64,000 bases of DNA, from positions 459,749 to 523,748 of the forward strand of contig NZ_FOSE01000001.1 of NCBI RefSeq assembly GCF_900114185.1, in the 5' to 3' direction. Position numbers and translations under genes: made by a program. Under the pieces are notes generated by a model. It searched no databases and was not told the DNA's origin. It saw nothing but the letters and a program-made list of their open reading frames with translations. Shown piece after piece: positions 46,575 through 52,201 of the stretch (positions within the stretch are counted from its first letter, which is position 1; each line of letters starts with the position of its first letter). Source of the stretch: Cellulomonas sp. KH9 (GTDB lineage Bacteria > Actinomycetota > Actinomycetes > Actinomycetales > Cellulomonadaceae).

Positions 46575-48897
<2,323 letters not shown>

Positions 48898-48912: not shown

Positions 48913-49719
48913 CTACCGGTCCACGCCCTGCCCGAGCTCCTCGCCCGGCCGGGCGGGCCGGGCCGGTGCCGGTACCGCCGGCGGCAGCGAGGTGGCGTCG
49001 GGCCGGCCCGCAGGGGTGGCCGACGACGCCTCCCCGGACGGCCGGACCGGGAGCTCGCTGCCGCTGAGGAGCAACCGGCCGGCGTGCACCTTGGCCTCGG
49101 ACACGTCGTCCTGCTCCCACAGGGCCATGAGCAGACGCAGGTCCCCGCCCGTGTACCCGGCCGCCCAGAAGGCGTCGAGCGCCTCCTCCTGCTCGTGGGC
49201 TGCCACGTCCCCCGGCGAGTGGACGCCCGGCTCGACCGGCAGCGGCTCGCCGTCCAGCAGCAGCTGACCGGCGCGCGCCTTGGTCTCGATCATCTCGGTG
49301 CCCCACAGCTCGCTGAGCACCGCGGCGTCGTCGACGTCGTAGGAGCCCCAGAACGCCTCGTACTGCGCGCGGGTGTACCCCGGCGGCATGGGCGACCACT
49401 CGATGCCCACCGCCTGGGCCGCGCCCTCGACGGCCCGCGCCACGTTCGAGTACGGGTTGGCGGCGGCAGCCGCGCCGGCACCGGCGACCGCGAGCGTGCC
49501 GGTCACCAGCCCGGCCGCGAGGATCTTGCCCCCGCGGTGCAGCGCGCGCACGGGTGCCGGCTCCGCGGCCTGCGCGGCCGCGCGCAGGCGCGCGGCCGCG
49601 TCGTCGAGGCGCGGCTGCTGCGCGGCGGCCCGCGCGTGCAGGGTGCGGGTGATCCGTGCGGCCAGCTCGTCGTCGGTGGCCGGGAACGGGGGCGGGTCGC
49701 CCCGGTGCTGCTCGCTCAT
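48913..49719 (-). CDS. Membrane protein with cytoplasmic helix and extracellular FW/ETKARAG repeats (putative anti-sigma)
   Basis: 268 residues. Residues 1-62 are charged and helical (DDELAARITRTLHARAA, AAARLRAAAQ), 66-87 form one membrane helix, and the outside part holds two copies of a ~50-residue module at 114-163 and 176-225: (YT)xxQYxAFWxxxYxxxDxxxLxxLW, then ETKARAGQLLLDGxPLPV; the second copy is diverged. A Pro-rich tail follows. The start overlaps the sigma-factor stop (ATGA). Gene order and topology suggest an anti-sigma factor whose sensor domain is the repeat; I recognise no known anti-sigma motif. Confidence 0.7.
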   Translation of the reverse strand: MSEQHRGDPPPFPATDDELAARITRTLHARAAAQQPRLDDAAARLRAAAQAAEPAPVRALHRGGKILAAGLVTGTLAVAGAGAAAAANPYSNVARAVEGAAQAVGIEWSPMPPGYTRAQYEAFWGSYDVDDAAVLSELWGTEMIETKARAGQLLLDGEPLPVEPGVHSPGDVAAHEQEEALDAFWAAGYTGGDLRLLMALWEQDDVSEAKVHAGRLLLSGSELPVRPSGEASSATPAGRPDATSLPPAVPAPARPARPGEELGQGVDR

Positions 49720-50360
49720 CGTGGCTCCGGTGGGGTGGTGAGGTCGGTCTGGCGCAGCGCGGCCAGGGCGCGGGAGGCATGGGAACGGACGGTGGCGGCC
49801 GACGTGCCGAGGACGCTCGCGATCTCCGGGTCGGTCAGGCCCTCGTAGTAGCGCAGCACGAGGACCGTGCGCTGCCGTGGCGGCAACGAGGCGAGGTGCT
49901 GCCACATCGCGTCGTCCTGCGCGACGTCCGCGTGGTCGACGTACGGGTCGGCGTGCGCGGCCAGCACGTCGTCCGCGGCGGGGTGGATGGTCCGCACGTG
50001 CCAGCGTCGGCGCCACGACAGGTGCTCGTTGGTCACCATGCGCCGCAGGTACAGGTCGGGCCGGGCCATCAGCGAGATGCGGGTCCAGCGCACGTGGGCG
50101 CGCAGCAGCACCTCCTGCACGAGGTCGGCGGCCGTGTGGCCGTCGCCCGTGAGGACCGTGGCGTACCGCAGCAGGCCGGGCAGGTGGTCGCGGACGACGT
50201 CGTCGAGGGCGCGGGCCGCGTCGTCCCGCACGTCGCCGGCCGGTGCGTCGTCCGGCGGGCCGTGGACCGTCGCGGGTGCCCTGCGTGCGCGCACGCGCGC
50301 GGGCCCGACGAGGGGGACGGCGGCGCTGTCCGGCCCGGCGGACCGCATCCAGGTGGTCAT
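49716..50360 (-). CDS. SigE-family RNA polymerase sigma factor
   Basis: 214 residues. An extra ~55-residue N-terminus precedes region 2 (DHLPGLLRYATVLTGDGHTAADLVQEVLLRAHVRW and PDLYLRRMVTNEHLSWRRRW) and region 4 (LASLPPRQRTVLVLRYYEGLTDPEIASVLGTSAATVRSHASRAL). This is the compact two-domain layout of the actinobacterial SigE-family extracytoplasmic-function factors. It overlaps both neighbours by four bases, so amidoligase, sigma and membrane protein are translated as a unit. It may drive its own operon; a candidate site is the direct repeat at 52168-52201. Confidence 0.9.
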   Translation of the reverse strand: MTTWMRSAGPDSAAVPLVGPARVRARRAPATVHGPPDDAPAGDVRDDAARALDDVVRDHLPGLLRYATVLTGDGHTAADLVQEVLLRAHVRWTRISLMARPDLYLRRMVTNEHLSWRRRWHVRTIHPAADDVLAAHADPYVDHADVAQDDAMWQHLASLPPRQRTVLVLRYYEGLTDPEIASVLGTSAATVRSHASRALAALRQTDLTTPPEPR

Positions 50361-51442
50361 CGGGCGACCACCCCCGTGAGGTCGGCGAGCGCGGCGCGCG
50401 GGTCGTGCAGCGCCCGCGCCCCGGGTCGTGGCAGCGGCGCGGGGTCGAGGCAGCGCAGCAGCAGGCGCTCGACGAGCGCGGCGTCGCGGACGATCGCGCG
50501 TCCGTCGATCCTGCCGGGCAGGATGCGCACCTCGACGGTGTCGCGCAGGCGGCGCTCCGCGACGAGCTGGGTGAGGTTCACGTCGGCGTACTTGGTGAGG
50601 CCGATCGCGTGCGCCTCGGCCCGCAGCGCCGCCCAACCCGCGTCGTCGTCCGCCCACGGCCGCTCGACCAGCGCGACGAGGGCGTCGGGCAGGGGGGCCA
50701 GGCGGCGGCAGGCCCGGTTGGTGGCGAGCGCCGCCCACAGCGGCTCGCGCCAGTGCGCGAACAGCCGCACCAGGTTGGCGAACGCCGCGGGGCGGCGGAA
50801 GGGCGCACCGTCGACGTGGACATGCACGGCGGCCTCCTGCGGGACGGTGAAGCCGAGCTCGCGGGCCGGGGACAGCAGGCGCTCGAGGGCGTGCGCGTGG
50901 CCGGTGACGAGCGGTGGCGTGACGACCTCGCACGGGCGCTCCCGCCCGGTGGGCAGGGGCAGCGCGACGGCGATCGTCGCACCGGTCGCGTCGTTGACGC
51001 GCGCCGCCCGGGGGAAGACGTCCGCCCGCACGCCGAACAGGTCCGCGACGGGGTCGAGCACGGTGGCCAGCGGCGCGGCGGGGTCCGCGTGGCGGGCGAT
51101 CAGCCGCAGCAGCCTCGCGTCGTCCGAGAGCAGCCGGTACCACCCCCGGTGCCCGGGCCGCGCGTGCGACCCGGGCACCGGGGCGAGGTCCGCCTCGATG
51201 GTGATGTCGTCCACCAGACGTGCCACCGGCTCCCCTCGCGCGTCGACGACGTCGAACGCCGGTGACAGGTGGCGGAAGACACCCACGCCCGGCACCGCCG
51301 ACGGCTCGCTGTCCGTGTGGAAGGACCGGTGCACGGCGCCGCCGTGGCGCTCGGCGACGACGGTCGCCAGGTCCTGCCGGTCGGAGCCCGCGGGGGCCAG
51401 CAGCTCGATCTCGAACCCCGTGCGCAGCGACAGCTCGTCCAC
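50357..51442 (-). CDS. Amidoligase-fold enzyme (glutamine-synthetase-like ligase)
   Basis: 361 residues from GTG 51442 with GAGAGGA upstream. TGFEIELL at residues 8-15 is the first conserved acidic strand of the Amidoligase_2 family. AAVHVHVDGAPFRRPAAFANLVRLF supplies the H-x-H-x-D and N of the middle, and LTKYADVNLTQLV with RDTVEVRILPG gives the late E-x-R. These residues line the ATP/metal site in the glutamine-synthetase/GCS-like fold. Members are predicted to form amide or peptide bonds, sometimes modifying proteins. Next to two repeat proteins, it may modify one of them; that is inference. Confidence 0.82.
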   Translation of the reverse strand: MDELSLRTGFEIELLAPAGSDRQDLATVVAERHGGAVHRSFHTDSEPSAVPGVGVFRHLSPAFDVVDARGEPVARLVDDITIEADLAPVPGSHARPGHRGWYRLLSDDARLLRLIARHADPAAPLATVLDPVADLFGVRADVFPRAARVNDATGATIAVALPLPTGRERPCEVVTPPLVTGHAHALERLLSPARELGFTVPQEAAVHVHVDGAPFRRPAAFANLVRLFAHWREPLWAALATNRACRRLAPLPDALVALVERPWADDDAGWAALRAEAHAIGLTKYADVNLTQLVAERRLRDTVEVRILPGRIDGRAIVRDAALVERLLLRCLDPAPLPRPGARALHDPRAALADLTGVVAR

Positions 51443-51477
51443 GTCGGTCCTCTCGTCGGTGGTGCCGGGCGGTCGGG

Positions 51478-52119
51478 TCAGGAGCCGGTGACGGTGCTGC
51501 CGGGTGCGACGGGAAGAGTCTGCCCGTCGAGGAGCGCCTGGCCGGCGCGTGCCTTCGTCTCGATGATCTCCGTGCCCCAGAGCGCGGCCAGCGCCTTGGC
51601 GTCCTCGGAGGTGTAGCCGGCGTCCCAGAAGGCGTCGTACTGCGCGTCGGTGTACGCGACCGTCGGCTGCTCGGGTGCCGGCACGTCGCCGCCCTCGGGG
51701 CGGACGGGCACGTCGGCCGGGGCGGGCGCGGCGGCGTCCGACGACTCGGCCTCCGCCGGTGCGGTGGGCACGGTGCCGGTCGGGTCGACCGGCACCTGCT
51801 CGCCGTCGAGGAGCATCTGACCCGCGCGGGCCTTCGTCTCCGTGCTCTCCGTGCCCCACAGCGCGGAGAGCTCCTCGAGGTCCGCGACCGTGTAGCCGGC
51901 GCCCCAGAAGGCGACGTACTGCTCGCGGGTGTAGCCCTCGGGCATCCCCGACCAGTCGACGCCGACGAGGCCGAGCGCCTCCTCGACGGCCTGCCCGGCG
52001 ACGGAGTTCGGGTTGGCGGCGATCGCGGCGCCGGAGCCGGCGACGGTCAGCGTCGCGGCGATGACGCCGATCGCGACCATGCGGCGACGGCGGGGCTGGG
52101 GCGTGGTGCTGGGGTTCAT
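51478..52119 (-). CDS. Secreted protein with two FW/ETKARAG modules
   Basis: 213 residues. A basic start RRRR and hydrophobic stretch (14-35) form a signal peptide or anchor. Two modules at 62-112 and 155-205 share YT-x2-QY-x-AFW-x-AGYT-x2-D-x3-L-x-ALWGTE-x2-ETKARAGQ-x-LLDG-x3-PV, with about 60% identity between them; a Pro/Ala/Glu linker joins them. The membrane-proximal ANPxS...VGxxWSxMPxGYT segment is also shared with the membrane protein at 48913, so the two are paralogues. I recognise no named domain. ATG has GGAGGA upstream. First gene of the cassette. Confidence 0.78.
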   Translation of the reverse strand: MNPSTTPQPRRRRMVAIGVIAATLTVAGSGAAIAANPNSVAGQAVEEALGLVGVDWSGMPEGYTREQYVAFWGAGYTVADLEELSALWGTESTETKARAGQMLLDGEQVPVDPTGTVPTAPAEAESSDAAAPAPADVPVRPEGGDVPAPEQPTVAYTDAQYDAFWDAGYTSEDAKALAALWGTEIIETKARAGQALLDGQTLPVAPGSTVTGS

Positions 52120-52167
52120 CGGTCCTCCGTGGGGGCTCGTCGGTACGTGCCCCCTCACAACGCGGCT

Positions 52168-52201
52168 CGACCCCCGATGTGTGGAGTTCGTCCCCCGGTG
52201 T
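52168..52201. promoter_or_regulatory. Direct repeat 21 bp apart upstream of the cassette
   Basis: CGACCCCCGATGT (52168-52180) and CGTCCCCCGGTGT (52189-52201) match at 11 of 13 positions with starts 21 bp apart, two helical turns. They lie 49-82 bp before the ATG at 52119 and are a plausible regulator or sigma target. Confidence 0.45.

Follow-up and report, generated by a model that had tools for sequence, protein, structure and literature searches.

The locus described here lies in Cellulomonas sp. KH9 (assembly GCF_900114185.1, contig NZ_FOSE01000001.1), in a stretch of 64,000 nt (positions 459,749–523,748 of the forward strand) referred to as the window. Four genes, A, B, C, and D, occupy positions 48913–52119 of the window, all on the minus strand, with a spacing of 35 bases between A and B. 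Genes were called with a simple script that misplaced some starts, with gene A called from position 52080. The features, in window coordinates, are as follows.

52159–52186, minus strand: promoter-like motif CTCCACA-N17-CGTT, ending 39 bases 5' of the start codon of gene A
51478–52119, minus strand: gene A, encoding a 213-aa module protein whose N-terminus resembles a signal peptide
51781–51933, minus strand: module copy 1 of A (profile E 4.9e-29)
51502–51654, minus strand: module copy 2 of A (profile E 4.7e-29)
50357–51442, minus strand: gene B, amidoligase, 361 aa, GTG start, matching PF12224
49716–50360, minus strand: gene C, SigE-family sigma factor, 214 aa, matching TIGR02983, Sigma70_r2, and r4
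48913–49719, minus strand: gene D, membrane-anchored module protein and candidate anti-sigma factor, 268 aa
49525–49719, minus strand: N-terminal tail of D, residues 1–65, predicted to be cytosolic and sigma-binding, with a long modelled helix at residues 16–51
49468–49524, minus strand: membrane segment of D, residues 66–84, from hydropathy, in a low-confidence region of the model
49228–49377, minus strand: module copy 1 of D (profile E 6.3e-24), helices at residues 117–126, 129–139, and 143–155
49039–49191, minus strand: module copy 2 of D, degenerate (profile E 2.4e-16), helices at residues 169–186, 191–201, and 206–218

A sequence-only reading of this DNA had taken the last three genes to form one unit, and the overlaps of 4 bases between B and C, and between C and D, bear this out. 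Convergent to D, and apparently outside the operon, are genes for aspartate kinase and aspartate-semialdehyde dehydrogenase (46575–48897, plus strand).

The module and its amidoligase partner

The N-terminus of protein A comprises a run of arginines, a hydrophobic stretch, and an alanine-rich end, resembling a signal peptide, and A is predicted from these features to be secreted. A and D share a module of ~47–51 residues with the core AFxxAGYxYxDAxxLAxLWxxxDxxxAKxxAGxxLLxGxxLP, for which a first profile drew on 240 distinct modules from 120 relatives (the best 120 of 291 matches), and a later one on 41 diverse modules. The module had been noted from the sequence as unrecognised and present twice in each protein, a description that stands, with all four copies matched by profile and the module itself without a match in Pfam or the PDB. 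The full proteins A and D matched zero Pfam families at an E value of 10, and none in NCBIfam, bar a meaningless match for A (E 0.31). The conservation of the module across genomes shows that it is more than a chance resemblance. Among 262 modules from 79 loci the tryptophan is present in all 262 and the glycine in 98%, with percentages in the end columns inflated by the ends of local alignments, and the lysine is near-invariant (253 of 261 modules, ~96%). All 108 module reading frames retain at least one such lysine, and the eight modules that lack it all come from Frigoribacterium and Agreia loci with no sigma gene (L111, L120, L123, L128, and L131). AlphaFold2 models each module as three helices, with block pLDDT values of 84–98 in the module part of D, within a model of D that has a mean pLDDT of 80 and a pTM of 0.43.

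LysM, the UniRef name of one relative (P0149), was considered as the identity of the module and rejected, with neither P0149 nor nine other module proteins matching LysM at an E value of 1, and LysM not among the 25 families that a capped Pfam listing gave for 48 module proteins; the helical model of the module also disfavours it.

Protein B scores 62.9 bits against PF12224 (Amidoligase_2; cut-off 22) and is thereby a member of this Pfam family, which Iyer et al. in 2009 reportedly described as predicted protein- or metabolite-modifying amidoligases. Its model (pLDDT 92.7) has a glutamine-synthetase/GCS-like fold, with matches to YbdK, glutamine synthetases, plant glutamate-cysteine ligase, and Dop, at Foldseek TM-scores that are low (0.27). 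Residues E11, E13, E172, H207, E304, and R306 are invariant in 31 relatives of B, and are presumed catalytic, which would fit a working ligase. No signal peptide is visible in B.

The sequence-only reading had made its proposal depend on whether these neighbours are conserved together in related genomes, and for the module and the amidoligase they strongly are. Among 297 genomes of the order, B occurs in 20 and the module in 21, with 20 shared, none with B alone, and one with the module alone (a highly fragmented assembly that is 76% complete); a module protein adjoins B in all 20 genomes with B, and the PF12224 family occurs in 19 of the 297, every one among these 20. Relatives of B in named genomes gave 141 loci, of which the best-scoring 80 (79 distinct) were examined. 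All 79 have a same-strand module beside B, and in 77 it is found within 1.5 kb upstream of B, the exceptions being L077, where the contig begins inside B, and L078, where A lies ~4.4 kb beyond D, with D in place in both. Class and phylum samples yielded five further loci, all five with a module beside B, and showed B to be rare outside the order (5 of 394 and 2 of 396 genomes, our own genome being counted in both). Within the genus the module is patchy (16 of 36 genomes), with the partners gained and lost together, and in each of the other 15 module-bearing genomes the retrieved loci include B. In one of these genomes (G003) A is 6.8 kb from B, with four called genes between them in an apparent insertion (L031:7171–13088), and in another (G035) the operon is split over contigs.

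Several further copies were also observed. A frame of 55 residues elsewhere in our own genome (L045:4848–5015, near position 50,850 of contig C2) encodes one full module, without a visible signal peptide or obvious ribosome-binding site, and is perhaps a remnant. A lone module frame in G003 (L055:4733–4882) lies between homologues of the upstream oxidoreductase and of asd-lysC, the place that the operon takes in the window; the operon of G003 is elsewhere (L031), and the lone frame is perhaps a relic of a lost operon. Genome G008 carries, besides a full operon (L034), a second module-amidoligase pair with no sigma gene (L048:4467–6199), the N-terminus of which is similar to the one at locus L106 of Cellulomonas fimi, likewise sigma-less. 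An orphan two-module protein in G018 (L046:4708–5229) has ASAC near its start, presumably resembling a lipoprotein signal. The amidoligase frame is interrupted in two genomes, being split into two frames in G177 (L075:1163–2214) and carrying one stop within the match in G113 (L071).

The sigma factor, a promoter-like motif, and protein D

Protein C carries Sigma70_r2 and r4, and scores 144.3 bits against the SigE-family model TIGR02983, only just above the cut-off of 141.55. An orthologue of C (at least 69% identity) is present in 15 of the 16 module-bearing members of the genus, with the next matches within the genus reaching at most 46%. Using a profile of C relatives, on the same strand and within 3 kb, a sigma gene was called at 63 of the 79 examined loci, which supports the linkage of sigma factor, module, and amidoligase proposed earlier; three of the other 16 loci end at a contig edge, leaving 13 of 79 module-B pairs that are sigma-less without that excuse. 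Sigma-based sensing is thus not essential to the pair, and the module and amidoligase are a constant pair that is more basic than the sigma factor.

Sigma-linked loci show two gene orders, module-B-sigma-module in Cellulomonadaceae, Promicromonosporaceae, and Sanguibacter, and sigma-module-B in Micromonosporaceae and two Kineococcus; module-B only is found in Microbacteriaceae, Kineosporia, one Cellulomonas fimi strain, and some metagenome bins. On a tree of B (74 of 81 rows) four changes are needed to explain the module-B-only state, supported branches forcing three or more of them, and the module is kept throughout. In Kineococcus vitellinus both B and the gene order are of the Cellulomonas type, suggesting that the operon was transferred as a whole.

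A family motif, TSCACR-N14-18-CGTY, the CGTY element of which we take to resemble the -10 element of other ECF promoters, was scored in one uniform test of upstream regions. As the pattern was first seen upstream of these same loci, the sigma-less loci and control genes constitute the real test. The motif lies upstream of 52 of 63 sigma-linked operons, compared with 0 of 13 sigma-less loci (Fisher p 1.6e-8, uncorrected for relatedness) and 11 of 321 control genes. It is found in 27 of 30 module-first loci with a downstream sigma gene, with two of the misses (L077 and L089) cut by contig ends and one (L109) not, in 25 of 33 sigma-first loci (absent in 8), and in all three loci whose contig stops before a sigma gene could appear. 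At L078, where A is separated from B-C-D, each of the two parts has the motif upstream. The only strict match in the window is that upstream of gene A. Across our own genome the strict form matches only 27 times, against 44 times for a backward control, and a family-like position is found only at this operon; one other match (L189) lies 39 bases before a called frame, and another (L175) lies 68 bases before a gene, yet inside a second gene. Because the motif tracks the sigma gene, C very likely transcribes its own operon. With no other clear promoter marked in our own genome, the main output is probably the surface proteins of the operon itself.

Protein D had been read as occupying the place of an anti-sigma factor, and it is both placed and built like one, with its gene coupled to that of C by the 4-base overlap, a 65-residue tail, a membrane segment giving a predicted one-helix topology, and an outer domain, the architecture of a membrane-bound anti-sigma factor. 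With a tail defined as at least 35 residues ahead of the membrane segment by hydropathy, 55 of the 63 module proteins next to a sigma gene have one (28 of 30 module-first and 27 of 33 sigma-first), compared with 3 of 44 others (L087, L123, and L128), with the eight untailed sigma-adjacent proteins and the tailed L087 probably reflecting misplaced called starts. Furthermore, the tails of both gene-order clades match by profile (probability 77%, E 2e-5; reversed control 0.8%). Among relatives of an Actinoplanes tail, for which candidates were limited by length, 119 of the best 120 of 210 carry the module, and the sole module-less relative listed resembles a damaged read. The zinc anti-sigma (ZAS) motif is absent from D, which contains no cysteine, and D is without a Pfam match at an E value of 10; the ZAS motif is not present in all anti-sigma factors. 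Taken together, the motif, gene coupling, and tail argue that C is held by D and transcribes its own operon, and D is likely the anti-sigma factor of C, at a confidence slightly below that for autoregulation.

Proposed mechanism and alternatives

The explanation we favour as a whole, to which we assign a little under an even chance, is that B likely amidates the module, and that the tail of D holds C, which likely transcribes the operon. Glutamine-synthetase-like ligases activate a carboxylate, which is then attacked by an amine. Since B pairs constantly with the module, a pairing more basic than the link to the sigma factor, a module protein is the most economical substrate, and the module itself, perhaps at its lysine, heads the candidates; that B acts on the module at all we consider somewhat more probable than the reverse. 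The lysine, near-invariant within the otherwise variable third helix, is a natural candidate for the acceptor amine, and that it is the site of action is proposed tentatively, with the balance lying against it. Judged by spacing, it would share a helix face with core residues and may instead be structural, and a conserved acid at module position 13 does not vary with it. Since B has no export signal and the modules are predicted to be extracellular, modification would precede export, with B acting on the module proteins in the cytoplasm. C would be inactive whilst bound by the tail of D, a change at the outer modules of D (modification, crowding, or binding, as the simplest guess) would free it, and the freed C would raise A, B, C, and D together. 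A more specific version, in which B builds an isopeptide-type bond on the lysine, the state of modification outside the cell is read by the sigma and anti-sigma factors, and modified surface proteins are the main output, is doubtful.

The earlier idea that the sigma factor is released when secreted modules pair with membrane-bound ones is not general as written. Of 33 sigma-first loci among the 79, the 32 with called genes (L121 is uncalled) run from a sigma gene through a single tailed module protein to B, and a gene for a separate, secreted module protein is lacking in between; secreted and membrane kinds of module protein occur together in some other sigma-first genomes (L068, L069, and L071–L074).

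B might alternatively make a small diffusible amide, such as a gamma-glutamyl compound, which the modules bind outside the cell and which D senses to release C. This is suggested by the small-molecule ligases among the nearest folds of B (YbdK, glutamine synthetase, and plant glutamate-cysteine ligase), the invariant tryptophan and lysine would suit a binding site, and an enzyme and its receptor would be expected to pair just as constantly. However, no exporter or further biosynthetic enzyme is conspicuous as a constant neighbour where gene order was called, and proteins with up to five modules, as at L110, exceed what a single receptor needs, leaving a diffusible amide unlikely. Sigma factors of the kind of C often respond to envelope stress, and secreted repeats often bind the cell wall, both of which would suit B modifying a wall precursor in the cytoplasm, modules that bind the changed wall, and an operon serving as a wall-stress response. 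Pfam scans reveal no wall-related neighbour or domain for any module or amidoligase, and the strict motif marks no wall genes in our own genome, making a wall-stress role less likely still. The SigE of S. coelicolor responds to cell-wall damage (PMC8999054), although it belongs to a different ECF group.

The genes could also be neighbours by common descent only, with unrelated roles. Many of the loci do come from related genera, such that the locus counts are not independent; however, the pair is retained in both gene orders and across no fewer than three forced gains or losses of the sigma gene, appears to have entered Kineococcus vitellinus as part of a whole operon, and is patchy in the genus (16 of 36), with partners that come and go jointly, and we consider unrelated roles highly improbable.

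Relation to known systems

Every part of the operon but the module belongs to a known family. B resembles Amidoligase_2 (PF12224) in its score, well above the cut-off, and in the expected glutamine-synthetase-like fold of its model, but differs in having the module as its constant partner here and in finding no tblastn match in phage and plasmid collections. Its relation to the Pup ligase and Dop is one of fold only, at 12% identity, and nothing in the operon was recognised as a Pup-like tag. In the canonical ECF mechanism (PMC8999054), a sigma factor is paired with a membrane-bound anti-sigma factor. The operon resembles that scheme in coupling a sigma gene to a one-helix membrane protein whose tail is cytosolic and which carries an outer domain, and in its likely autoregulated promoter, but departs from it in that D, without cysteine, has no zinc anti-sigma motif, and in that the outer part of D is the very module that its operon exports, always beside an amidoligase. 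A literature search found no description of the module, amidoligase, and sigma factor together.

The module is one that is missing from Pfam, and a group of PF12224 amidoligases of unknown substrate gains in it a strongly supported candidate partner. The operon also offers a sigma circuit that is small and self-contained, its promoter being predicted. Should the module prove to be the substrate, the operon would represent a system that modifies exported proteins and has its own transcriptional sensor; scattered as it is across actinobacteria, it would be an unrecognised route of cell-surface modification and sensing.
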